Shown in pieces: positions 2,241 through 58,500 of a DNA stretch of 64,000 nt. The notes under the pieces are model-generated. The model worked only from the letters and a program-made list of their open reading frames with translations, was not told the origin of the DNA and did no database searches. Source of the stretch: Chamaelirium japonicum. Its lineage: Eukaryota; Streptophyta; Magnoliopsida; Liliales; Melanthiaceae. Both the position numbers and the translations under genes were made by a program. The stretch lies in contig OX393549.1 in the NCBI GenBank assembly GCA_947650365.1, positions 97,191,014-97,255,013 on the forward strand. Reading direction: 5' to 3'. Positions within the stretch are counted from its first letter, which is position 1, and each line of letters begins with the position of its first letter.

Positions 2241-3450
2241 TGATGGGATGTGAATGCTAAACAAAGCCAAGTGCTGGATTTTTAAGCAGTAAAATCAGAT
2301 TTCAGCATATCAAAGATAAATTTCAGCAAAGCCGATAAACCCGATTCATCATTCATTCAATACCCAAGCATGTTTAATCTGACAAAATGATAAAACAGAC
2401 ATAATAAGATCTAATTTCAGATTATAATAAACCAGTCCAGCAATACCAATGATCACAGTCTCAAATAGAATAAGCCAACGTCTCAAGAACAAGTAAAAAT
2501 CTAAACGAATAAACCTAATGGATGAGACTCTCGGGGAAACAGAATTTTAGGGTTCCTACAATGGAATCAGCAATAAGGCCGGTTGCAAGAAAGCAGGTTA
2601 TCATATGAAAATTATCGAGGATCGATCTCACCGTGCTTTGGTCAATGCCGGCAGCTTTCCGATGCTCCAATGTTGCAGAGGAATGGCGCGGAAGGGGGAG
2701 GTGTGGTCATGAAGACGGGGTGAAGAAGCCGAGACGATGATCTTGAAGAAGAAGAAACTCCACGTCGATCTTCCGTGAAGCCGAGGATGAATAGCGAGGC
2801 GACGGGGTAGAAGCGTGCGGAAGGAAGAGGTAGACAAGAAGCAGAGAGGATTTCTTCGGGAGGGATAACCGAACAAGCGCACACGCTTCTTCAATCTAGG
2901 GTTTCAATTTCAATTCATCTCCCCTCTCAATTAGGGTTTGTGGGGATTTAAAGGGGATGAAACAACAAAAGCCACAAAAGGAAAGGAAAGAAGAGAGAGA
3001 GGGGCCGGTCGGGTAGAGAGAAAGAGAGACGCGCGGGTGAGAGAGGGGGGCGCGGGGCATGTTCGCGGGAGAGAGAGAGAGAAGGCCGGTCGGGTGGGCT
3101 TAGGTTAGGATTTTTTTGGTTTTTAATTCCCCTTCGAATCTCATCCATTGAGATCTATTCTAACCTAACATCCTACGGCTAAAAGTAAACACAGAAACGA
3201 GTCAGTTCGGCATCTGTGGCTCGAACCGGATGCGAACATGGCTCGCACCTACCCAAACCAGAAATAAAAACTGAAATAACTAACGATCCGCTGGTCGGAT
3301 CGAAATAAAGTAAAAACCAAAACTGTGGGGCTTCGATTAAGCTTTCCACTGATGCAGACGGATCGACGATCGGGTTTCTGGATCTCCGGCACGGATGGAA
3401 ATACGCCATCAGCTGTAGAAAAACTGCACGTAGTAGGCTCGTCTGCATCA
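2241..3450 (-). repeat. 3' LTR of the gypsy element
   Basis: 1210 bp, nearly identical to 6137-7346. The short reading frames on both LTR copies (proline- and serine-rich, paired in both LTRs) are chance frames and not genes. The LTR contains AG-rich stretches near 2990-3085. Confidence 0.9.
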
Positions 3451-3462
3451 AGTCCCCCGGAC

Positions 3463-4206
3463 TTAAAAGAACTCGACTCCTGTCGAGCAAGGTCCTGGGT
3501 CCGGCGGGGGCTCTCCTGGCAGCAACTGCAACCGCTGCCTCTGATCTGACTGCTCTCCCGGGTCCGGTGGCCAAGTGATCCGCCTCAAGTACGCAGCAAC
3601 TCCATCTCGTAGCCTCTGCCCCTCGACGCCAAGCGAAGACCTGAAAGGCAACACCAACATCCTCCGCGGCACGATAAGATCATCAAAAGACTCAGATAAT
3701 TTCATGTGATAATAGGAATGTGGGTTGACATGAAATTCAAATGACATGTGAAAAGAAAGGCCGCGGGAGCATAATGTGCTGCGGGTCATCGGCTTGCGCG
3801 ATTGGCAATGGAATATTTGAAAGGCCGTGGGTTGCGGGTGCGTAATGTGTTGCTCAAAATGGCCTGTGCACGGTGCAAAGTAAGGGGATTCTAAACCAGG
3901 AAGATATGTCATGTCATCATTGTCCGGATGCAGTGAATAAAATAAGAAATTAAAGAATCCATCATGCCAATTATTATGATTTCGAAAAATTAAAGATGAT
4001 GGGTTGGCTGAAAGTTGAAAGCATGATTCATAAGTGTTCTGCATCGAAAAGTGATCAGACATGCCAAAATCGTCTTTACTGCTTAGTTCAACACTTGGAC
4101 AACATGGATGCACATATGAATGATCTATGATTGTATGTACGTCAGGCAAATGATGAATGCAAGTGTCATGAATGCCTACCGATTCTAAATGCGATGTGCA
4201 TGCCAT
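3463..4206 (-). other. Tail of the gypsy internal region, next to the 3' LTR
   Basis: A 247-codon open frame lies between the recognisable gag-protease part and the 3' LTR. I recognise no domain. The C-terminal quarter (containing LRDGVAAYLRRITWPPDPGEQ) is charged and proline-rich. It may be remnant or non-coding sequence of the element and is not a host gene. The plus-strand frame over 4131-4343 is judged spurious. Confidence 0.3.
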
Positions 4207-4434
4207 GGAATGCGAGATGTTGCCTAATCCCTTATCAATTCTTAGTAAATCATATGAACATCCAACTAAGTTTTCAGCGAATGGTGGTATGGATGGACTC
4301 TGACTCAGAAGGGCTTGAGGTGCATGGGATCGGTGTTTCCTAAAACATGTAGGCCATAGGGTGACATTGATGCCATCCTTCAGAAAAGTATAGGTGTTGA
4401 CTCTACCGTGATGTTGGACATCTCGGTCGAACTG

Positions 4435-5985
4435 TCATGGACGCCCTAAGATAACATCAGCAACCTCTAGCGGAATGATATCGCACCAGATCTCATCTCT
4501 ATATTGCAGCCCAATGGATAACTTTGCCAAACAACAGTGAGTTACCAGCTGACTCGTGGTGTTGTCTAGCCAGGATGTCTTGTAAGGGTGAGCTAATGGT
4601 TTAACTTTCCATTTCTTGCTCCTAACTACCCTTTCATTTATCAGATTGGTGGTACAACCTCCATCGATCAAGAGACAAAGGTCCATTCCGTTGACAGTGC
4701 AGACTGTTCGGAATAGTTCGAACCTCTGGTTCTTGCAGTGTGGCTTAGGGGGTCCTCCACAGAGCTCGTGGGGTAACAATGCTTTGGGTGCTTGGGGTGA
4801 TGGCGACTGGTGAATGACCAACAGTGGTGCAGTCACATCATCCCCCTCCAAGACTAATTCATTGAAGTGCTCCCCATCAGATTCGTGACTATCCTCGTCA
4901 TTATCCGCAAGATTTGTCTGTGGATGGAATTGACGGCGAGGACAGTCGGCGGACTTGTGACCCGGCTGGTTGCATTTAAAGCACTTTATCTGACTCGGGT
5001 TGGGTCCTAGGACTCCTTTACCCTTCTCAGTGGGTGCAGGAACTGTGCCAGCTACAGGTGAAGGTCCAAGGAGTGGTCTACTAACGGATCCGGATGTCGC
5101 CCTGGTGATGTCATATCGTCGGGACGCAGATCGGGAGTGGTGAGACTCGACTTTCTTGGCCCGACGGTGTGCATCACTGACCTGATACAAGTCGTGAAGG
5201 GACACCACCTCCTGAATTGAAGGCTTGAGACCGTTGACATACCTAGCGACGCTCTGCTCTTCATCTTCGTGCAGATCGTTCCGAGCTTGGAGCTTGTAGA
5301 ATTCATTAGTGTAGTCGTCTACAGATTTATGCTCCTGTCGCAGGTTCTGGAATTTCTGGAACACATTCTGCTTGAAATCAGAAGGGAGGAACTTCTGTTG
5401 CATTTTTCCTCGCATATGTGTCTAGGTGGAAATCTTTTCTTTCCCTTTCCTACCCCTAGCGGTCTGCAACTGTTTCCACCAAATAGGTGCATGACCTTTC
5501 AATTTAAGGCTGACAAACTTGACTTGTTTGTCGCGGGGAATTTCTTTCCACTCGAAGAACTGGTCGATTCTCTCGGCCCATTCTAGAAACTCTTCAGGGT
5601 CCATCCTACCCTCGAACTCAGGAATTTCTATCTTGATGCCCTGATCCCAGCCCCAATGAGATTTCGATCTCCTATGACTTTGCCTACTTCTCCTCTCAGA
5701 CCCGTCAGAGGAACTGACGCTGTCACCCCCGGACTCTAACTCGCTACGCCCTGGTGACGCTCTAGTCCTATGTTCTCGATGGGGTCGAGGCTGATTTTGG
5801 GAATTAGTGAAGGCTACGGTCAAGGTTTCTAGCTGGGTCTGAAGCCTATCCATGTGTTCCTGTTGCCTCATGAAGGCATCTTGCCAAGTTCGGGGCGGAG
5901 AAGATCCAGCCATTACGGATTGTCTCGTAGATGCTATCGAATCACTACAAAGAGAAAGGGATGGTCCTAATATGTATGCGATCAC
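4435..5985 (-). CDS. Gypsy gag with CCHC knuckle, followed by aspartic protease-like domain
   Basis: Coding part of the non-autonomous gypsy element. Near 5900-5420 is the gag N-terminus, with the retrotransposon-gag signature around residues FEGRMDPEEFLEWAERID and KGHAPIWWKQL. The gag domain continues near 5400-5200 (FQNLRQEHKSVDDYTNEF), with a CCHC zinc knuckle near 4970 (CFKCNQPGHKSADC) and a pepsin-like retroviral protease region near 4700-4440 (DLCLLIDGGCTTNLI, then EVADVILGRP). The element product would package its own RNA if supplied with a partner's polymerase. The reading frame is broken about once or twice. Gag and knuckle resemble chromovirus-like or related plant gypsy lineages; I cannot place it further. 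Confidence 0.8.
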
Positions 5986-32156: not shown

Positions 32157-33546
32157 TTATGGGCTTAATCCCATCCCCCTCGACGATTCTAAGACCACTG
32201 TCCTAGATAGGCCCTTAGTTAGATGATCCGCTAAATTCTTTTCGGATCTAACAAAGTCTAGGGCAATTATTTGATTTTTCATCTTATATCTGAGAGATCT
32301 ATGTCTCACTTTCAGATGTCGATTTATTTTCACGTCAGCGTTTTCTTGATTACATTTATCAATAGCTGATCGACAATCACAATGGATAGATATAGCCGGT
32401 AAAGGCTTTTCTATCAAGGGGATCTCATATAGAAGATCTCGAAGCCATTCTGCTTCTGTGCTAGTGGTATCTAGCGCTATCATTTTTGATTCCATGGTAC
32501 TCCTAGCTATAACAGTCTGTTTGGTGGATTTCCAAGATATGGCTCCACCTCCTAGTAGGAATACATATCCGGTTGTGGACTTAATATCTATTGAATCACT
32601 AATCCAGTTAGCATCAGAGTATCCCTCTAATACAGCTGGATATCCACTATAGTGGAGACCGTATGATATGGTTCCCTTAAGATATCTAAAAATTCTTTCT
32701 AACGCATTCCAATGGGACAAATTCGGGTTAGACGTATAACGACTAAGTCTATTTACCGCGTAAGCGATATCGGGTCGAGTATAGTTTGCTAGAAAACCTA
32801 GCGATCCTATGATTTGAGCATACTCGCTCTGTAATCTAGGAAGTCCAGTATTCTTTGTTAGATGGGTATTTGGATCATATGGTGTGGATACCGGTTGGCA
32901 ATCGGGGTCGTAAAATTTCCTAAGGATTTTCTCGACATAGTGGGATTGGGATAACACTAAACCATTGTCCTTCCTAATGATCTTAGTGTTCAAAATAACG
33001 TCGGCTTGTCCTAAATCTTTCATGTCAAAGTTTTTGGGACAAAAAATGTTTGATATCATTTATGATTTGTATGTTTGAACCGAATATCAGAATATTGTCA
33101 ACATACAAACATAAGATGACAATATTATTATCATCTATTTTATGGTATACACATTCATCCGTTGTGTTGATATCAAATCCATAGGATAAGATAACTTCAT
33201 CGAATTTCATGTGCCATTGTTTTGGGGCTTGTTTAAGTCCATAGAGAGATCGAATTAATTTACACACCTTTCCTTCTTGTCCAGGTGCAGTAAATCCCTC
33301 GGGTTGGTCCATGTAAATTTCCTCATTAAGGTCGTCATTCAAGAAAGCAGTCTTAACATCCATTTGATGTATGACTAGCTTATAGATTGAAGCTAAGGCG
33401 ATGAGGATCCTAATCGTGGTTATCCTAGCGACAGGTGAGTAGACATCAAAGTAGTCTACCCCTGGTTTTTGGGTAAAGCCCTTGGCTACAAGTCGTGCCT
33501 TAAATTTATCTATGGTACCGTCGGGTCTAAGCTTTTTCTTAAACAC
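32157..33546 (-). CDS. Copia reverse transcriptase and RNase H part
   Basis: Two overlapping frames cover the copia reverse transcriptase and RNase H. Motifs include [20 protein letters not shown], the catalytic-region CLYVDNI(L) on the 33025-33546 frame, [13 protein letters not shown], and, on the 32157-33059 frame, [10 protein letters not shown] and the [17 protein letters not shown] passage. Element coding sequence, not a host gene. Broken, as stated for the whole element. Confidence 0.9.
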
Positions 33547-34640: not shown

Positions 34641-35393
34641 CTACGCATATCTCGCACTTGTCGAGATTCCTAGTATCGGATTTAGGAATGACTTAGACGG
34701 TTGACCCTCTATGTTGTTGACCTTGGGTTTGGATTCAGAGGATCCCTTTTCCCTGAGCCTATGTTGCTCCTCAATTCTAATAGAGTTTAGAACTTGAGTT
34801 AGGGTTAGGTCACCTTGGGTATGACTTAGGTGCTTAGAGAACTCAGACCAAGAAGCAGGTAGTTTATCTATAAGACATGCTATTTGGAAGGTTTCATCAA
34901 GAGTGGAACCATTCGTCTTTAGGTGTTGGACTAGGTTTTCAAACTCATGAATTTGATCATTCATGGGTTTGGAGTCAACCATTTTGAAGCTGTTGAAGTC
35001 AGACGCTTTGAAGCATTTTACTCCAGCATCATCTAGGCCATATTTACGCTCTAGGGTATCCCATAAGTCCTTAGGATTTTGAATGGTATAGTAGATGTCA
35101 TATAGCCTATCAGATAAAGCCCCTAGGATCCTATGAAGGCCATGGTAGTTGATTTCTTCTGGGGTCCTAGTGGGAATGCCAGAAGTTGGTTCAGTTTCAG
35201 GTTGAGAAGTGGAGGCTCGGGTACGACGAGTTTGGCTAGGCCCATTGGATACTCCTGGTGCGGTTTCACCTATGGCTGATAATAACCCAAGTGTGGTTAG
35301 CCAGAAACACATCTGGTTCTGCCACCTCTTGAAGTTAGACCCGTCAAACTTTTCGGGTTTGGCACTAAGGGTTTCACGGTTTGGTGAGGCCAT
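34641..35393 (-). CDS. Copia gag part
   Basis: Begins MASPNRETLSAKPEKFDG and contains NFKRWQNQMCFWLTTLGLL, the typical copia gag N-terminal region, followed by a helical gag core (DLWDTLERKYGLDDAG, and FENLVQHLKTNG). Start chosen at the first ATG at 35393, 436 bases from the inner edge of the right LTR. Retrotransposon coding sequence. Confidence 0.85.
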   Translation of the reverse strand: MASPNRETLSAKPEKFDGSNFKRWQNQMCFWLTTLGLLSAIGETAPGVSNGPSQTRRTRASTSQPETEPTSGIPTRTPEEINYHGLHRILGALSDRLYDIYYTIQNPKDLWDTLERKYGLDDAGVKCFKASDFNSFKMVDSKPMNDQIHEFENLVQHLKTNGSTLDETFQIACLIDKLPASWSEFSKHLSHTQGDLTLTQVLNSIRIEEQHRLREKGSSESKPKVNNIEGQPSKSFLNPILGISTSARYA

Positions 35394-47280: not shown

Positions 47281-47369
47281 AATAAGGCTTGTGGCTGCTG
47301 TTCCTGACCATCACCTTAGCAGGGGAGAATCCACTGATGAAGAGGCATGGGTCATGCTACCCCGGAGAC

Positions 47370-47982
47370 TGTGGGTGCAAAAATTGTACCGGACCGGATC
47401 AGAGCGGCATGGGCCCGCGCAACGGCCCAAGTGGGTAAGCCCGCCCGGGTTCATGGGCCCACTCTACAAGGCTCGCAGATCAAGCCCTCCCCCTTATTGG
47501 GCCCGAACAACGGCCCAATAAGGGCCCAGCAATGAGGCCCAGAACCAGTGCCACGTCATCATCGCCACGTCATCACTGCCATATCGGGCACGTGCCTATG
47601 CTACAAAAGGACCCCCAAGGCATCCAGGAAAATGGGTTGGTCATTCAATCAGAGGAAGAGGGATTCCAGCTCCAGAGCAAGTGCAATAGCCTACTTCTCT
47701 CCTCCTAGTTTCTTTTCTTGTTGCTCCGTGCAACCCCCACTGTAAAAAGCTTCACTCGGCTTGTCGAGAGAACGCTTCCCATCTTTATATTTATTATAGT
47801 GGAAACCAGGTGGCACCTCTCGCCCGGAGACGTAGGTCGTAAGACCGAACTTCGACAACAACTCCGTGTGTCATCTCTCTCCTTCTCAACTTTATAATCT
47901 CTAACTCTACAAACCATCCTCATTCAATCAAGGCTGTGGGGCGGGGTTCCCGATCAAGGCGGCTCGGAAATTTCCCCCAACA
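47370..47982 (+). repeat. 5' LTR of the TR-GAG element
   Basis: 613 bp, TGTGGGTG...CCCAACA. A TATA-like CTTTATATTTATT near 47790-47802 and GGCCCA-type repeats near 47440-47535. Followed by the primer-binding site. Confidence 0.92.
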
Positions 47983-48059
47983 ATCTTTGGCGCCGTCTGT
48001 GGGATATCGTTAGAGGTCTTACTCACACCTCTACCGACTCCTATTCAACTTGCGGTGAC

Positions 48060-49774
48060 GAGCCACAAGTCCTCATCCAAATCAACATCAATGCCTTCAT
48101 CAGCCGACATCAACACGCTCGATGGTGAAGGCCAGTACCAACCCACCAAAGGTGGGTGCTGATCGGACAATCGATATGCTGATCGAAGAAGAACAAGAAG
48201 TCTCGGTTGCAGCCAACCGAAGAAATATTTGGGAGCGGCTGGGGCCGCAAGGCAGCCATCTAGAAGGGCACAGCGATCGGCGAGACCCGTCATCCCCGAG
48301 GCGTCGATCTGGCAAAGAACACGCTATTCAAGGGAGCAAGCCTCAGGCTACATACGAGATCTCGGCTGCTGATTTCCAGTTGTTGAACCTTCTCAAGAGG
48401 AACGCAGCCCTCGAGCAAGAGAGGGATTCCCTAAAGAAGGTAGCTGAAAGAGCGGGGGTTATGGCCCACAACTCTCCAACTGCTGATGAAGACCAACCAA
48501 GGGCTCACCCAGCCGTGATTCATCATCTTGAAGAATCACATGTGCCACGTATCGAGAGGCGTCAAGTATCCACACAAGCACCAAGGCAAACGGTGTGGGA
48601 TCGCCTCGACGTCAACGATGCACCCAACTATCACGGAGAAGGATCACCTCAGTCAATAGGGTCCACTAGACATTCTATCCCTTCGCACACGAAAGCAACA
48701 GATGCCCGCGAGCTGCTCAACCGAATAAGGCATACTGCCGACGTGGGACGCCGCCATCAAGACCGTAGGTAACTAATCACCTCGGTGGGGCCACTGCATC
48801 CCAAGGTTCTTGCAACACCATTTCCTATGGGTTGGCGAACACCGAACCTACCAAAGTTCAACTGCATCCGGGGAGACCCTGCTCTCCATATCCTAGCCTA
48901 CAAGCAGGCCCTGACGCCCTACGAATATAAGAACCATGTTCTCTGCCGTATGTTTGCGGGAAGCCTCGAGGGACCTGCCCTCGACTGGTACTACACACAG
49001 CCTACCGGTATGGTGGCCACATTCAAAGAGTTGGCTGAACTTTTCATGGACCATTATCGGCTAAACTTAAAGCCGAAAAAGAGGCTGGATACACTCTACC
49101 AGCTGAAGATGGGCTCCGACGAGTCTCTAAGGAGCTTCACGATGAGGTTTCATAATGAGCATTCTGAGCTTACCGATCGCTCCTATAATGAGGAGGCCAT
49201 CATGCTGGCATTCCAGAATGCTATCCGGCCAGAGCTCCACGTCTACACCGACTTCATCCGACATCCTCCCAATAACTTGGAAGCGATGTTCAAGCACGTA
49301 CAGCGGGAGATAGAGGTGGAAGACAATCAGCGGGCCAGAAGACTACGCGAGCCCCGCGAGTCTCGTGACTCCCGACATAAGACAGATGATGAAGCTCCGA
49401 ATGAAGCACACTACAAGAAGTCTGCCCATGCCGCGTCCGACCAAAAGGTGCAGGCCAAAAGGTACAATGAAGATCCGAAAGCCCCTCCAGCAGAAAAGAG
49501 GCGAACTCCAAGGGAGCAAAGGGTGTTCACTGAGCTGAACACCTCCATTGAAGACATCTTTGCATACTTGCAGAACAAGCCCTTTTGCAAGTGGCCACAG
49601 CCTCTCTCTCCAAATTCCGACCAGGCGGAAGATACGACAGCCAACTGTGAGTTTCATCGCAGCCATGGCCACCCAACCTCTGCATGTCGGAAGCTAAAGC
49701 ATCACATCGAAGACCTGATCCAAGAAGGGCGACTCGATGGCTACCTCGCTAATAAGGAACCAGGTCGAGAGTAG
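48060..49774 (+). CDS. Gypsy gag of the TR-GAG element
   Basis: Two adjoining frames (48122-48772 and 48785-49774) carry a gag of Tat-like type. The N-terminal part is charged and probably coiled (NLLKRNAALEQERDSLKK). The core contains LPKFNCIRGDPALHILAYK, GSLEGPALDWYYTQP and LKMGSDESLRSFTMRFHNEH, followed by a basic region and a Cys-His motif CEFHRSHGHPTSACRKL near 49650-49690. Reads as near-whole gag with about one break. The product would form particles with polymerase supplied by another element. Confidence 0.85.
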
Positions 49775-49913
49775 GAGAGGCTGCAGCAACGGAGAAAAGA
49801 AAGTCAATGTAATACGTGGATGCATAATCGTAACGTCCGCGGGGCAACCTCTGAAAAAGTATAACTGCAACTTTGTTATATCAATAAAGTGTCTTTTTTT
49901 TCTCAAAATCAAA

Positions 49914-50455
49914 TCTCTCGAAATTCGATTCCGCCCATTCAAGTCGGAAGCTCGAAGGTAAGTCGGCTACGCCCTCTCGAGGCTAAAAACCGATAAAAAG
50001 GCTCCTGGCAACCCAGGTCAACCAAAGACCTTCGATTCTGCCCGTTCAAGTCGGAAGCTCGAAGGCAATTCGGCTACGCCCTCTCGAGGCTAAAGTCCGA
50101 TAAAAAGGCTCCTGGCAACCCAGGTCAACCAAAGACCTTCGATTCCGCCCATTCAAGTCGGAAGCTCGAAGGCAATCCGGCTACGCCCTCTCGAGGCTAA
50201 AGTCCGATAAAAGGATCCTGGCAACCCAGGTCAACCAAAGACCTTTGATTCCGCCCATTCAAGTCGGAAGCTCGAAGGCAATTCGGCTACACCCTCTCGA
50301 GGCTAAAGTCCGATAAAAAGCTCCTGGTAACCCAGGTCAACCAGAGACCTTCGATTCCGCCCATTCAAGTCGGAAGCTCGAAGGCAATTCGGCTACGCCC
50401 TTTCAAGGCGAAAGTCAGATAAAAATGCTCCTGACAATCCAGGTCAAGCTAAACT
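49914..50455 (+). repeat. Tandem array 1, about 108 bp, five copies
   Basis: Units share TTCAAGTCGGAAGCTCGAAGG, CTCTCGAGGCTAAAG and CTCCTGGCAACCCAGG. They begin near 49933, 50040, 50149, 50256 and 50363. Copies are similar but not identical. Non-coding as far as I can see. Confidence 0.9.
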
Positions 50456-50465
50456 ATCAACTATA

Positions 50466-51190
50466 CTTATCCGAGGTGACCAATGCCTCGGCACTCTATA
50501 AGCCCAAGGCCCAGTCCTTGGAACTCAATGACAAAGTCCGAGGCGACCAACGCCTTGGCACTCAACAAGCACAAGGCCCAGCCCTTGGCACTCGAAGATA
50601 AAGTCCGAGGTGACCAATGCCTCGGCAATCTATAAGCCCAAGGCCCAGCCCTTGGCATTCGAAGACAAAGTCCGAGGTGACCAATGCCTCGGCACTCTAC
50701 AAGCCCAAGGCCCAGCCCTTGGCACTCGAAGACAAAGTCCGAGGTGACCAATGCCTCGGCACTCTACAAGCCCAAGGCCCAGCCCTTGGCACTCGAGGAC
50801 AAAGTCTAAGGTGACCAATGCCTCGGCACTCTACAAGCCCAAGGCCCAGCCCTTGGCACTCGAATACAAAGTCCGAGGTGAACAATGCCTCGGCACTCTA
50901 TAAGCCCAAGGCCCAGCCCTTGGCACTCGAAGACAAAGTCCGACGTGACCAATGCCTCGGCAATCTACAAGCCCAAGGCCCAGCCCTTGGCACGCAAAGA
51001 CAAAGTCTGAGGTGACCAATGCCTCGGCACTCTACAAGCCCAAGGCCTAGCCCTTGGCACTAAAAGATAAAGTCTGAGGCGACCAATGCCTCGGCACTCT
51101 ACAAGCCCAAGGCCCAGCCCTTGGCACTTGAAGACAAAGTCCTAGGCGACCAACACCTCGGTACTATATAATCCCAAGGCCCTACCCTTG
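50466..51190 (+). repeat. Tandem array 2, about 67 bp, eleven copies
   Basis: Unit contains GAGGTGACCAATGCCTCGG, AAGCCCAAGGCCCAG and CCCTTGGCACTCGAAGA. Period is about 67 bp, with starts near 50473, 50540, 50608 and so on. The matched, shifting frames on both strands across it are repeat artefacts. Copies toward the right are more diverged. Confidence 0.92.
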
Positions 51191-51689
51191 ACACATAAAG
51201 ATAAAGTCCGAGACGTCGTCGCCGACATATTGGCATTCGATCAAAAGTCCAGGCTTAGTCTTGTCACTCAGGTCCAAGCATTAGATTGTCAATGGCCATC
51301 ACATTTTCTCGACGACTAACGGTTCCAAGCCGGTCAGGGGGTGGTTGGTCTGACTCTGTCAGTGCGTGTCTCCACACTGGTGCAGTCGACGGTGGGTAAC
51401 ACGGGATAAAATGGTGCTTCCTCGATCCTGGCCAAGTCAACACCCTCGCGTGACCGTAGTACCTGATGAATATAGTAACCAGGTACGGTAATACATTGGG
51501 TGAAGACCGGCTGGCCATCATGCGTCGTCATCCTAGATTATCTCTAAGAAACCCCCTCGAATGTAGCATTGTCCCTCGCCGACATCCTCGCGCACCAGCG
51601 TTTTACCGAAAAAGTGTCGGTTTCAAAGGGGGCTGAAATTCGAAAAATACACTATTTTCAATACCGACACTTTTTGACCTCTTCTAGCA

Positions 51690-52840
51690 GCCCCAATAAT
51701 GGGGTGTCGACACCAACAAGCAGCCCCCCCTCGGTTTCGCATAAAAACCGAGTAGGAAAGGAATGACGGCACACCATCAACAGCACACCCCTCGGTTACG
51801 TCAGAAAACCGAGAGGGGGTGTGTGTCGGCATCGACAAGCAACCCCCCCCTCGGTTTCGCACAAAAACCAAGTGGGGAAGGGGTGACGGCACCCCACAAG
51901 CAGTCCCCCCATCTCGGTTTCACAAAAAACTGAGAGGAGAGGGGGTGTTGGCATCAGCTACAACCACCCCTCGGTTTTGTCAGAAAACCGAGAGGGGGTG
52001 TGTGTCGGCATCAACAAGCAGCCCCCCCTCGGTTTCTCACAAAAATCGAGTGGGGAGGGGGTGACGGCACACCGTCGGCAGCACACCCCTCGGTTTCATC
52101 AGAAAACCGAGAGGGGGTGTGTGTCGACATCAACAAGCAGCCCCCCCTCGATTTCGCACAAAAATCGAGTGGGGAGGGGGTGACGGCACACCGTCGGTAG
52201 CACACCCCTCGGTTTCGTCAGAAAACCGAGAGGGGGTGTGTGTCGACATCAACAAGCAGCCCCTCCTCGGTTTCGCATAAAAACCGAGTGGGGAGGGGGT
52301 GATGCACACCATCAGCAGTACACCCCTCGGTTTCGTCAGAAAACCGAGAGGGGGTTTCGTCAGCAGCACACCCCTCGGTTTCGTCAGAAAACCGAGAGGG
52401 GGTGTGTGTTGGCATCAACAAGCAGCCCCCCTCGGTTTCGCACAAAAACCGAGTGGGGAGGGGGTGACGCACACCATCAGCAGTACACCCCTCGGTTTCG
52501 TCAGAAAACCGAGAGGGGGTGTGTGTCGGCATCAACAAGCAGCCCCCCTCGGTTCCGCATAAAAACCGAGTGGGGAGGGGGTGGCGACACACCATCAACA
52601 ACCACCCGTCAGCAGCACAACTCTCGGTTTCGTCAGAAAACCGAGAGGGGGTGTGTGTCGGCATCAACAAGCAGCCCCCCCCCCCCCCTCGATTTCACAC
52701 AAAAACCGAGTGGGGAGGGAGCGACGGCATACCATCAGCAGCCCACCCCTCGGTTTCGACAGAAAACCGAGAGAGGAGGTGTTCGGCATCAATATCAACC
52801 CACCCCTTGGTTTCATCAGAAAACCGAGAGGGGGGGGTGC
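51690..52840 (+). repeat. Tandem array 3, hairpin-bearing units of about 120 bp
   Basis: About 19 short hairpins at roughly 60-bp intervals, alternating in two types. Both have a stem of CCCCTCGGTTT pairing with AAACCGAG(A/T)GGGG; the loops are TCGTCAGA-like and CGCACAA-like. Two hairpins make a unit of about 120 bp, nine or so units. Frames here (for example 52238-52939) are repeat artefacts. Confidence 0.92.
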
Positions 52841-53205
52841 TCGGCGCCATCCAAACTTATTAGTCAATCCAATTCAAGTGACATTCGCACACAAGGATCA
52901 GCCAAAGACGAAGAGTTATCTTCCATTGGAATTGGTTGAATAGCATCTCCACCTAACCTATTGAGTTGGCCGTACAAACTTCGCAAGCAAAATTCCTCCT
53001 TATTATCTGGGGGTGGACTCGTGGTAACCGTCGCGTCATCACTAGGGCCCGACTGCAGTCCCTAGTGAATACAGTAACTAGGTGCAGTTGGGTGTCGAAC
53101 AGAGACGGATGAGTTACCGCGTATCGATGCCTCTTCAAGACGCGCGTAGGACACTCGGTCAACGCGTTCTTTAGAGTCATCTCTTTATGAAGGTGATTAC
53201 TGGAA

Positions 53206-53660
53206 AAGTTACTCGTCAAGGTATATGATGTTTCACGTCCACTTTGACCGTTTTTTCAGCGCCTACACAACGGCACCTTATACGCATTCATCTGACGCAC
53301 ATATGAAAAGTTATGGCTGTCGAAAGTTTTCAAAGTCTTTTTCTCCGAATACATGCATTGGAAATATTACACGCAAAGGTGCCCGACGCTTTACGTCCAC
53401 TTTAACCAGTTTTTCAGCGCCTACGCAACAACGCCTTATACGCATTGATCTGACGCGTGTATAAAAAGTTATAACAGTAGGAAGTTTTCGAGGCCTTTTC
53501 CTCCGAAGGCAGGCATCCGAAAGGTCACACGTCAAGGTGTGCGATGTTTCACGTCCACTTTGATCGGTATTTCGGCTCCGACACAACGACACCTTATACG
53601 CGTTGATCCGACGTGTGTATGAAAAGTTATGACTGTCTGAAGACTTCGAGACTCTTACAC
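53206..53660 (+). repeat. Tandem array 4, about 158 bp, three copies
   Basis: Starts near 53206, 53366 and 53526. Shared parts include CGTCCACTTTGA, ACGCATTGATCTGACGC, AAAAGTTATGAC and CTTTTCCTCCGAA. Copies are diverged by roughly 10-20 percent by eye. It lies directly before the APR piece. Confidence 0.85.
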
Positions 53661-53689
53661 GGAGGGAAAGATTACAGAGGAAGTTGATC

Positions 53690-54606
53690 ACGAGCATTGA
53701 TCTCATGGCCTCCGTTGTGCCTTCTCGGGTTCCATCTCCCTGCACACAATCGTCCCCCGCGAGCCCAGAACGGCCCAGATCAGCGTCACCAGGCATCTGG
53801 AATCCTCGCCGGCGGCCAGAATACCTCCCCGGCGGCGATTGATGGCGAGGCCCGCCCGCACCGTGGAACCGCATCGTAGGAGCGAGTCGGTCGCCCCCTT
53901 TGGCCGCCACGGCAACGACGGCGGGGGTGGAGGGCCCGGAGAGGACGAGGGAGGAAGAGGGTCTCGATTGCGAGAAGCTCGCGGCGGAGCTGGAGCATGC
54001 CTCCCCTCTCGCGATCATGGATCGAGCCCTCGAGCGGTTCGGGAACGACATCGCCATCACCTTCAGTGGAGCGGAGGATGTCGCATTGATCAAATACGCT
54101 CGGCTGACAGGCCGGCCTTTCAGGGTCTTCAGCCTCGACATCGGCCGGCTGAACCCAGAGACCTATAGGTTCTTCGACGCCGTGGAGAAGCACTACGACA
54201 TCCACATCGAGTACATATTTCCGAACGCAGTGGAGGTGCAGGGGCTCGTGAGGACCAAGGGTCTCTTCTCATTCTACAAAGATGGGCACCAGGAGTGTAG
54301 CAGGGTGCGGAAGGTGAGGCCGCTGAGGCGGGCCCTCAAGGGCCTCAGGGCTTGGATCACCGGCCAGCGCAAGGATCAATCCCCGGGGACCAGAGCCCAC
54401 ATCCCCGTTGTTCAGGTCGACCCTCGAAGGCATGGACGGCGGAGCCGGTAGCCTAATCAAGTGGAATCCCGTCGTGAACGTCGACGGCAAGGACATCTGG
54501 AGTTTCCTCCGAACCATGGATGTCCCCGTCAACTCCCTGCACTCACAAGGCTACGTGTCGATCGGGTGCGAGCCGTGCACGAGGCCGGTCCTGCCGGGGC
54601 AGAGAG
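53690..54606 (+). pseudogene. APR: Captured APS reductase (APR) gene fragment
   Basis: Encodes the N-terminal plastid-transit-like region and most of the reductase domain of plant adenosine 5'-phosphosulfate reductase, which reduces activated sulfate to sulfite in plastids. The presumed start MASVVPSRVPSP is at 53705; then a Pro/Arg/Ser-rich leader, then the conserved [35 protein letters not shown] (nucleotide-binding loop), [54 protein letters not shown] and the [14 protein letters not shown] cysteine motif. The copy stops there: the glutaredoxin-like C-terminal domain of plant APR is absent. The coding sequence is continuous in DNA with no intron, but its frame is broken at least twice, so I regard it as a captured pseudogene carried by the TR-GAG element, not a working enzyme. 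GC-rich, unlike surrounding repeats. Confidence 0.9.
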
Positions 54607-54936
54607 AAAGAAAGAAAGGAAAAAGAGAAAAACTGTTCTTTCACCAAAAGGGTCTCGGTACCCTCTCGGTATTCTCTCGGTACCCTCTCGGTATGCTCTC
54701 GGTACCCTCTCGGTATCCACTCGGTCGGAAAACACACTGCTTTTTCGGAAACACTCCCTTGCAAAACCGAGACTTTTGGCCCGCGCCAAAAGGGTCTCGG
54801 CATCGGCAGAAGGAGACTCTGCTAATGCGAACCGCAGCACCGACAGCCCTTGCCAACCGCGACAGGATCCTAAGGCGTTTGCACCTCGGAATCCCAGCCG
54901 ACCCAGGGGGTCCTGACCCGACTGGGAGGGGGTAAC
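54607..54936 (+). other. Junction between APR fragment and 3' LTR
   Basis: AG-rich run at 54600-54632, then a 54648-54728 stretch of short CTCGGTA(C/T)CCT-type units in about ten copies, then roughly 200 bp with no recognised content, ending in a polypurine tract. The CTCGGTA motif resembles the TCGGTTT stems of array 3 and may share an origin. Confidence 0.6.
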
Positions 54937-55549
54937 TGTGGGTGCAAAAATTGTACCGGACCGGATCAGAGCGGTATGGGCCCGCGCAACGGCCCAAGTG
55001 GGTAAGCCCGCCCGGGTTCATGGGCCCACTCTACGAGGCTCGCAGATCAAGCCCTCCCCCTTATTGGGCCCGAACAACGGCCCAATAAGGGCCCAGCAAG
55101 GAGGCCCAGAACCAGTGCCACGTCATCATCGCCACATCATCACTGCCATATCGGGCACGTGCCTACGCTACAAAAGGACCCCCAAGGCATCCAGGAAAAT
55201 GGGTTGGTCATTCAATCAGAGGAAGAGGGATTCCAGCTCCAGAGCAAGTGCAAGAGCTTACTTCTCTCCTCCTAGTTTCTTTTCTTGTTGCTCCGTGCAA
55301 CCCCCACTGTAAAAAGCTTCACTCGGCCTGTCGAGAGAACGCTTCCCATCTTTATATTTATTATAGTGGAAACCAGGTGGCACCTCTCGCTCGGAGACGT
55401 AGGTCGTAAGACCGAACTTCGACAACAACTCCGTGTGTCATCTCTCTCCTTCTCAACTTTATAATCTCTAACTCTACAAACCATCCTCATTCAATCAAGG
55501 CTGTGGGGCGGGGTTCCCGATCAAGGCGGCTCGGAAATTTCCCCCCACA
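54937..55549 (+). repeat. 3' LTR of the TR-GAG element
   Basis: Partner of 47370-47982, with about ten differences. Followed by target duplication GAGAC. Confidence 0.92.
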
Positions 55550-55554
55550 GAGAC

Positions 55555-58500
55555 GAAGGCCACGGCAAGCAAGGCAACATAAGCAAGACCAGGTGATGAG
55601 GAGACTTCCCGAGCGAAGGACTTTCAAGAAGAAAAGCAAGACTCCAAGAAGAAAGGCGTTCAAAGTGCCACCGAAAAATCTAAACGATCTCCTCCAGCAA
55701 AGCCTTCCGGAACCAACAATGTTGCAAGAGTTCTTCCCCGATTACTTCCTCCCAATCGATCAGCACATCAGGGTCTCGTGTTGCATGGTTGAAGTTCATA
55801 AAATGTCGGAAGGAAAAGGCAAGATCGAGACTTCTGAAGAAGGCGACTCCACCGACAAGAGAGACGACTCCGACAAAGAAGGCACTGCCTCTCATGACGA
55901 GGCAATCTTGCACTTGCCGCTCGTAAAAGCTTTGCACCCCCCGAAGAAAGCTCGCCTAGCAATGGCTGCAGCCTTGGCGGACCCAGACAGCTACAAGAAG
56001 AAGAGGAAGGATGGCGAGAAGGGCAAGACTGTGGTCTTATGCGACGCGACGATAACCTTCTCAGACGAAGACTTGCAACTCAGAGCACGATTGCACAACC
56101 GGCCCGTCTACGTCTCGGGATACATCAAGGAGATGCCAGTGAATCGAATTCTGCTAGACTGTGTATCCGCCGTCAACATCATGCCCATCCAGACAATGCG
56201 GCAACTCGGCATCACCAATGACCAGCTCTCGCACAGCCAGCTGGCCATTCAAGGGTTCAACCAGGGCGGGCAGCCCACCATCGGAATCATCCGTCTGAAA
56301 CTTTCAATCGACCCGCTCGACACAACGATCCTCTTCCACATCATTGATTGCCAGATGTCGTATCACCTTCTGTTGGAAAGACCATGACTACATGAGAATG
56401 GTGTTGTAGTATCCACTTGGCATCAGTGCCTCAAGTACTACAAGGAAGGCATAGAGAAGTGCATCGTCACTGATGATATGCCATTCAATGAAGCCGAAGC
56501 ATACCTTGCTGACGCCAAGTTCTATCAGGCGAAAGACCTTGTAGCAGAAGTCCTTCCAGCTAAAGCCCCTTGAATCCAAAAGGCTGAAGAAGTGAAGCAA
56601 TATAAGGCTCCTCCACCTGCAAATATGATGCAACCTTCCGACAAGGTGATACTCGAAGTCAAGGAGCGTCGAAATCAAGACAAAGGAGGCATATCAATTC
56701 CAAGCCGAGAGCAATGCAACATACTCCATTGCCCGTTCAAGTGACACCAGTCCTGCGCCTCGCACCTCAATGGCTTCGCAAACCCGAGCGACCGCCTTCT
56801 ACTTCGGCAAAAAAGCCAGTCCCGTCATTATCGTAGGCCAATGTCATCACTCTGCAAGAAATGACATTGTCGTTACCTAGTCTGACGCAAGCTTCAAACC
56901 CAATCGGACCTGACGGATCTACCGACAACAATCGACTCGAATTCAAGCCAAAAGGGAGTTGGGGGCAAAACACCTCCAAGTTGCTATTCAAAGCCGGCTA
57001 CAATGAAGGAAGCGCTATGCCAATGGGCACACTTCTCCCAGCGGCAATGCCACATGGGATGACCAGGACTCAAGCTCGTCCGTTTCAAAGCGGCGAACAA
57101 ATTCTCCCGAACCGCCGAGGTATCGGCTCCTGTCAAACCCCGATGGTCGTCAAGATTGCAACGAAGAAGACCTTCACCTCCAACTATATTGAGGTGAAGA
57201 TGATAGACGAAGCAGCTAAAGGATCGACAATCTTCGATGCACGCTCCACCTATGCTAGCCGTACGGATAGCAAGAGAAGACAGCGATGAGCTCGATGCCA
57301 AGCTATACTCCAGAAGCAAAACAAAAGCAGTCAAAGTCGGTCGAATCTAAAGCGTATATCCATGTTCGAAATACTAGGGCCAATCAAGTAACCAAAGAAG
57401 AGGTCGGTATTTGACCATTTGGGAATTTCAATCGAGGAAGTCGTTTCAACACCCGCCCACCCACCCATGGCGGTTGTCAATCATATCTCCATTATCGAAA
57501 CTGACAACGATGATATTTCTACTTCGGACGACAAGTTGCAAGATGGCCTGCCGGTCCTCGAAGAAGGGGGGGCAGTCCACCGTTGATGACTTGAAGGAAA
57601 TCAACTTGGGCATAGAAACGGAGCCTTGGCCTACATTCGTCAGTACATTCTTGACTCCTGAAGAAGAAGCTGCATACATCAACCTGCTCCAAGAATATCG
57701 AGATGTCTTCGCATGGTCCTACAAGGAGATACCGGGTCTCGATCCTAAAATCGCAGTGCACCAGCTCAGCGTCAAACACGGAGCTAGTGCCATCAAGCAA
57801 GGACAAAGACGCTACCGGCCGAAACTTGTACCCCAAATAGAAGGCGAAGTAAACAAGTTAATCCAAGTCAGCTTCATCTGAGAGGTCAAGTACACGACAT
57901 GGATCTCTAGCGTCATCCCAGTCAAAAAGAAGAATGGTCAAATCAGAGTGTGCGTGGATTTCAGAGACTTGAACAACGCATGTCCGAAGGATGACTTTTC
58001 GTTGCCAATCACAGAGCTAATGGTGGACGCGACGACAGGCCACGAGGTGCTAACTTTCATGGATGAATCCTCAGGCTACAACCAGATCCGGATGGTACCC
58101 AAAGACGAAAAACTCACAGTATTCCGCACACCAAAGGGAATCTACTGCTACAAAGTTATGCCATTCGGCTTGAAAAACGCAGGAGCCACCTACCAATGAG
58201 CCATGCAGAAAATCTTCGATAACATTCTTCATCAAAACGTGGAGTGCTACATCAATATCCATGTTGTAAAGTCTAAGAAGAAGTCGACACATCTGTAAGA
58301 TCTCGAGCTGATCTTCAAATGACTATGAAGGTACCAGCTCTACATGAATCCGCTCAAGTGCACGTTTGGAGTCTTCTCGGGTAAATTCCTTGGCTTCGTC
58401 GTACAACATCGAGGTATTGAGATAGATCAATCCAAAATTGATGCTATCATCAATATGCCCGCACCAAAGACCGTGTGAGACCTCAGAGGTCTCCAAGGGG

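Follow-up and report, generated by a model that had tools for sequence, protein, structure and literature searches.

A spliced host APS reductase mRNA piece carried in many copies by a gag-only LTR retrotransposon family

An LTR retrotransposon in the 64,000-nucleotide stretch of DNA analysed here (the window) carries part of a plant APS reductase (APR) gene, which raises the question of how a host gene piece entered the element and what became of it there. An earlier note, made from the letters of the window, had placed the piece at 53690-54606. By alignment with the donor gene, we found that its true span is 53648-54602, beginning about 40 bases earlier and ending 4 bases sooner. These 955 bp lie in the sense orientation, that of gag, and comprise 57 nt of donor 5' UTR upstream of the ATG followed by donor codons 1-301, ending past ...RPVLPGQ, with introns 1 and 2 absent. 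The two reading frames of the piece were run separately against TIGR00424 (plant-type APS reductase); the first matched profile positions 73-244 (E=1.1e-95) and the second positions 243-306 (E=1.9e-37). PF01507 also recognised the piece, and the P. aeruginosa APS reductase structure 2goy matched it (E=2e-49). These matches confirmed an APR gene piece in an LTR-gag-LTR element, an identity far beyond chance. Relative to the donor, deletions of 1 and 5 nt and an insertion of 1 nt break the frame of the window copy, so that the transit-peptide region, which the earlier note had read, lies out of frame. IMG/VR was also searched with the APR piece and gag, and no relatives were confirmed there.

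The element that holds the piece spans 47370-55549 (8,180 bp) and has the structure of an LTR retrotransposon, with paired LTRs ending in TG...CA and GAGAC on both sides (Table 1). The LTRs differ at 10 of 613 sites (7 transitions and 3 transversions); at the rate used for LTR dating, 1.3e-8, the divergence K of 0.0165 corresponds to about 0.6 million years. Four kinds of tandem arrays precede the APR piece, which sits between the 158-bp array and the 3' LTR, the position that the earlier note had given it. The sequence GGGAGGGGGTAAC before the 3' LTR is one that we take to be polypurine-tract-like. The palindromes of the array with units of about 119 bp could form RNA hairpins.

Table 1. Features of the element in the window
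Feature	Position	Strand	Basis
Target site duplication GAGAC, 5' copy	47365..47369	.	flank comparison
5' LTR, 613 bp	47370..47982	+	98.4% to 3' LTR
Presumed primer-binding-site-like stretch TTTGGCGCCGTCTGTGG	47983..48003	+	adjoins LTR end
gag reading frame, TAA at 48770-48772	48122..49774	+	ORFs 48122-48772 and 48785-49774, same frame
Tandem array, 106-bp unit	49924..50447	+	repeat search
Tandem array, 67-bp unit	50470..51212	+	repeat search
Tandem array, ~119-bp units with short palindromes CTCGGTTT...AAACCGAG	51701..52840	+	repeat search
Tandem array, 158-bp unit; last copy contains 5' edge of captured piece	53201..53647	+	
Captured host APR mRNA piece	53648..54602	+	donor alignment
Purine-rich tract at APR 3' join	54603..54632	+	sequence
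3' segment common to sister elements, CTCGGTA repeats	54638..54936	+	comparison with siblings
3' LTR, 613 bp	54937..55549	+	LTR comparison
Target site duplication GAGAC, 3' copy	55550..55554	.	flank comparison

The coding content of the element was examined with Pfam. The gag domain PF03732 was found in the second part of gag (48785-49771, E=2.1e-7); neither the gag ORFs nor four of the six ORFs of at least 90 aa overlapping 49775-53640 showed a pol domain, a DUF7622 match among the latter falling below the cut-off. The element called complete in the earlier note is so in structure, but not in coding, as a TAA interrupts gag; a copy on C10 (L066) has an open frame of 649 codons at the expected gag position. 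The founding TR-GAG paper of Chaparro et al. in 2015 is said to describe short elements, under 4 kb. At 8,180 bp the element exceeds that length, so we rejected the strict TR-GAG label and kept the earlier note's term TR-GAG-like. That term agrees with the operational definition, in which gag, or gag plus protease, is the sole coding domain between the LTRs in the text available for PMC6022998, since gag is the only recognised coding domain in the ORFs searched. A reading of the surroundings as part of a Gypsy-type element was dropped; the ORF at 55503-56384 has no Pfam match.

We searched the genome (1.52 Gb, 3,253 contigs) for the donor of the APR piece. The search traced the piece to a gene of the host plant itself, C2:81758913-81760590, the only locus found, among 51 candidates scored, that joins an APR reductase part to a C-terminal redox part. 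It matches TIGR00424 positions 4-464 in four exon matches, implying three introns; the other match to this profile, at C1:3714543, is weak and covers positions 351-455 alone (E=8e-6). Two donor introns, of 90 and 86 bp and both GT-AG, lie inside the captured span, and the third lies 3' of it, visible as an exon gap. Intron 1 was missing from all 22 APR copies and intron 2 from all 19 copies that reach its site, the other three ending earlier, indicating that a spliced mRNA was captured. The piece is thus a captured (transduced) host gene, with its donor found and the donor introns precisely absent, and it was captured from spliced RNA. The earlier note had argued for capture through RNA provided that the donor has introns in this span, and the intron comparison that it called for bears the argument out. 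The copies are 94.5-95.7% identical to the donor, values obtained with a donor piece spliced one base off per intron, which affects about 2 bases in 950.

The same search, also called for by the earlier note, found the APR piece at no fewer than 22 places in the genome, the window included (a lower bound: 26 rows minus three donor rows, with one copy split in two rows), so that the possibility that all sibling elements lack it falls away. The copies share their junctions. In all 11 carriers for which the start of the 3' LTR was in hand, that start is identical and preceded by AGGGGGTAAC, and both elements with two flanks in hand have 5-bp duplications (GAGAC and ATGCC). At C19:2832592-2835972, two identical APR pieces 2.6 kb apart form a local tandem duplication.

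To describe the family beyond APR, we searched with the window gag, which gave 2,218 first-look candidates (40 scored, all at 97% or more), and with the 3' segment, which gave 1,460 first-look candidates and 91 rows, of which 40 full-length rows were used. Three APR-less siblings were read from gag to past the 3' LTR. The first, L070 (C3:56325700-56332400, element on the minus strand), carries an N-terminal BRR2 piece between the 158-bp array and the 3' segment; it matched the U5 200-kDa helicase in PDB (E=3e-15), and Pfam found nothing in it. The second, L072 (C12:4466500-4473000), carries at its positions 3390-4550 an antisense P450 piece (PF00067) and, after it, an HSP90 piece in sense (PF00183). 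No recognisable gene was seen among the open frames of the third. We then took eight more 701-bp stretches upstream of the 3' segments of other siblings, which had been ordered by their similarity to the first one. They yielded BRR2 again (PF21188; L077, the second sampled sibling with an N-terminal BRR2 piece), a C-terminal HD-ZIP IV piece (PF25797) and a protein piece without a Pfam match (L079 1-456 and C10:23469222-23469677), which may resemble a plant embryo-arrest protein; the other five held low-complexity frames only, as judged by eye. Sister elements thus hold host pieces in the same interval as APR, in 5 of the 11 sampled siblings if the piece without a Pfam match is included, and five identified host genes have so far been found as cargo in the family.

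The abundance of these cargos was assessed by genome searches, in which places are sequence matches and LTRs were seen only in the elements read. Besides the 22 APR places, the results showed 17 places for HSP90, 17 for P450, 12 for BRR2, 7 for HD-ZIP and 30 for the piece without a Pfam match. For HSP90, 17 places were counted from 42 rows, leaving out the P450-cluster rows, HSP90 gene exons on C7, C5 and C2, the short row C7:50835547 and C6:41005124. The P450 search gave 28 rows, 11 of which are gene copies (C2 cluster and C61) and were not counted, and the BRR2 search gave 16 rows, with 12 places besides the presumed donor (C4:48815656 onward). From 14 HD-ZIP rows, the 7 at 98-100% were counted and the 7 at 68-91% left out; from 39 rows for the piece without a Pfam match, 9 short or weaker rows were left out, and the 30 counted places may include the donor. 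One of the six known cargos was found 2.9-5.8 kb downstream of 12 of the 40 scored gag loci and within 2.5 kb upstream of 6 of the 40 full-length 3'-segment rows. Cargos are also joined to each other: a P450 piece lies beside all 17 HSP90 places, with HD-ZIP IV added in two of these, and in a C10 APR carrier the piece without a Pfam match lies 537 bp past APR with no LTR match between.

The HSP90 piece offers a second proof of RNA capture. Its donor (C7:13418854-13430435) has a 98-bp intron and an intron of about 10.9 kb; the first is missing from all 17 places and the second from all seven that reach it. The captured span of BRR2 has no intron in the donor, so it is uninformative on splicing. 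The P450 piece, putatively CYP84A/F5H, is 96% identical to a gene in the C2 cluster. Its antisense orientation is unusual, since transduced sequences in plant LTR elements usually lie in the sense of gag and pol according to the available part of PMC7264820.

The captured pieces could matter as sources of small RNAs that act on the donors or shield the element, a reading that we regard as unlikely, though less so than the three rival explanations taken up below. Of the 21-mers of the window copy, 311 of 935 match the APR donor exactly, and the copies taken together cover 843 of 968 donor positions. Among singletons of the copies, 102 of 134 are C>T or G>A changes, and 75 of these 102 lie in CG or CHG context, the baseline being 333 of 631 donor C or G sites; such decay is as would be expected for methylated repeats. 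The P450 piece is antisense at 17 places, and TE gene captures in maize act as siRNA reservoirs, as stated in the accessible part of a 2026 review (PMC13317346). Against this, the APR piece lies in sense, which leaves the earlier note's suggestion of antisense RNA against the host APR without support, and codons 1-301 of the donor are open. Judged from the shared 21-mers, cross-targeting of the donor by the window copy would be possible in principle only.

How the APR mRNA entered the element was approached through the joins. Relative to the A of the start codon, the captured sequence starts 57 nt before it in APR, 12 nt before it in BRR2 and 28 nt after it in HSP90, so that, among the four identified sense cargos, three begin no more than 60 nt from the start codon; the HD-ZIP piece, a C-terminal end, and the antisense P450 piece are both off this rule. 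The APR donor has a TATA-like TATTTAT 50 nt upstream of the point where the captured sequence begins, suggesting that the piece lacks perhaps 20 nt of the mRNA end. The 5' join of APR has a shared GAG-type word in a GA-rich donor stretch. The 5' joins differ between cargos, that of APR lying inside the 158-bp array and that of BRR2 about 400 bp past the end of the array match.

The 3' joins were compared with the donors for APR, BRR2 and HSP90, and all three lie in purine-rich tracts. In the longer APR copies, the donor continues after CAGCAC with GAGAGGGAAGGGAGG and the element with AGAGAAAGGAAAAAGAG; the BRR2 and HSP90 joins are of the same kind, a purine-rich donor stretch against purine-rich element sequence. 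Longer purine-rich and low-complexity sequence occupies the 3' join position in other APR carriers and in sister elements. When the 20 bases 3' of each break were compared with 20-base windows of the donor sequence examined, the share of windows with equal or higher purine content was 0.016 (APR), 0.031 (BRR2) and 0.076 (HSP90), in a test that was devised after the joins were seen and covers these three cargos. These purine-rich 3' joins point to template switching.

Taken with the spliced donor sequence, we consider it highly probable that a non-autonomous, gag-only LTR family of high copy number took up a spliced APR mRNA by template switching, most likely once, and multiplied it as non-functional cargo. 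Reverse transcriptase would copy the element RNA toward its 5' end. Once the purine-rich tract of the element had been copied, the end of the nascent cDNA would pair with a purine-rich stretch in an APR mRNA packaged alongside, and synthesis would move to this second template. The APR mRNA would then be copied to about 60 nt upstream of the start codon, near its presumed 5' end, where the enzyme may switch back to the 158-bp array of the element via the short GAG-type match. Three parts of this scheme are inferred, namely that the two RNAs were packaged together, in which order the switches took place and what the purine tract contributed. A simple first-strand switch does not yield the antisense P450 piece.

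Read-through transduction would have the element lie upstream of APR and be transcribed into the gene, with the transcript spliced and packaged and its APR part later internalised. Among the routes by which plant retrotransposons capture genes, it is named first in the portion of the 2026 review at hand (PMC13317346), and passing through RNA it would likewise remove introns. The APR piece, however, begins inside the 5' UTR, about 50 nt below the TATA-like box, without promoter sequence, and it is flanked on both sides by element sequence well inside the LTRs. Since several unrelated genes occupy the same interval, several separate read-through events would also be needed, and we hold this route to be very unlikely.

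We also considered whether the APR frame is kept and still serves the element or its host, for instance as a reductase domain that has been domesticated. The results showed no indel or stop across the 301 codons in 5 of the 22 copies and frameshifts or stops in the other 17. A +1 insertion and a 5-nt deletion are common to 15 copies, two of which are the local tandem pair on C19, and two copies have independent frame breaks. In a tree of 21 copies and the donor, which left out one split copy and in which 3 of 18 inner branches reached starred support, the 14 rows with the shared break form one clade (support 99/96), indicating that most copies found descend from a frame-broken ancestor. One intact-frame copy, at C9:62.0M, has LTRs with 2 differences in 580 and is the youngest copy seen; the intact frames may therefore only reflect lineage and youth. 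Counted from the first Met, the open frames of four of the five intact copies run for 422-499 codons, and we rejected the parts beyond APR as fusion proteins, as these tails are low-complexity array sequence.

Plant-type APS reductases have the [4Fe-4S] cysteines CC...CxxC. In the window copy the CC motif reads C-S, the second Cys being replaced by Ser. Codon 199, TGC in the donor, is AGC (Ser) in 21 copies and ATC (Ile) in one, so that the second Cys is lost from all 22; the C-terminal redox domain is absent from the copies as well. The piece is therefore not a member of the plant-type APS reductases and, judged by these residues, is predicted to be dead as an enzyme. Pooled pairwise dN/dS was 0.61 in the five intact-frame copies and 0.48 in 14 frame-broken copies (three of the 22 were dropped: one identical duplicate and two with independent breaks), and donor-to-copy values, which include the donor's own branch, were 0.26-0.62. 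We rejected a dN/dS below 1 as a mark of constraint, as the frame-broken control is lower than the intact group; there is thus no sign of protein-level constraint, and the piece is a passenger. Retention of a working APR frame is accordingly highly improbable, despite the open frames and the young copy on C9. The APR piece shows that cargo can multiply after enzyme function was lost, so captured-gene copy number is no sign of use.

A processed pseudogene of APR made by a LINE that landed in the element would likewise lack introns, yet pseudogenes of this kind retain the 3' end of the message with its poly(A) and sit between target duplications. The APR piece instead contains the 5' end of the message and breaks off inside the coding sequence; what follows it is a mixed purine tract and no plain poly(A), and its flanks share no word longer than 4 nt in the 25-31 bases compared, which makes this the least credible origin of all.

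Beyond the single APR event, the interval between the tandem arrays and the 3' LTR, with its many purine tracts, may be a standing capture site that repeatedly takes host mRNAs by template switching, the family picking up, fusing and amplifying transcript pieces; this wider reading is a serious possibility that we advance tentatively. Capture of host genes by LTR elements is already known. Bs1 of maize, an LTR element with transduced segments of three host genes in the consulted part of PMC13317346, resembles the present element in holding such segments; its chimeric gene is transcribed and translated, whereas the APR piece here is predicted to be dead as an enzyme, and in the present family one interval is occupied by different host pieces in different sister copies. 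LTR elements that contain host gene fragments have likewise been counted in maize (425 elements from at least 189 captures; PMC2774510), and LTR-captured genes in rice (672) and sorghum (1,343; PMC3726574), as given in the extracts of these surveys. In the extract of the maize survey, no element combined pieces of two or more standard nuclear genes (PMC2774510), whereas here 17 places join P450 and HSP90, two add HD-ZIP, and one place joins APR with the piece without a Pfam match.

The window element shares with TR-GAGs, one of which has been shown to transpose in Arabidopsis (partial text of PMC8704663), its two LTRs and gag as the only recognised coding domain, and differs in its 8.2-kb length, long tandem arrays and host pieces. 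With Retand, as described in the sections available of PMC11963269, it shares tandem arrays between the coding region and the 3' LTR, which are present there in about half of recent elements; an antisense TRP28 frame occurs there in 97% of clusters, whereas no pol or TRP28 domain was found in the window-element ORFs tested. In titles and abstract openings, with most subscription papers outside the search, no account of repeated capture by one family was evident, and repeated capture into one region of one gag-only family was not found described. The only paper found that joins 'LTR retrotransposon' and 'APS reductase' is the rocket genome paper, by the opening of its abstract.

Discussion of how LTR retrotransposons acquire host genes has drawn largely on isolated examples. 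The family described here is recent and has many copies, its donors are known from its own genome, its spliced cargos come from several genes and its joins are preserved, which opens the mechanism to direct tests, through the purine-tract and mRNA 5'-end bias of the joins, the frequency of cargo fusion and the action on donors.

Two minor observations were made along the way. The HSP90-like sequence at C6:41005124-41005547 is 88% identical over 87-510 of the captured piece and continuous across the position of intron 1; it could be either another retrocopy or a gene without intron 1. The window also holds other retroelement pieces on the minus strand (4438-5415, 32160-33059 and 34644-35393), which include gag with a zinc knuckle (PF03732 and PF00098), Copia-type gag (PF14223) and a below-cut-off reverse transcriptase match (PF07727).
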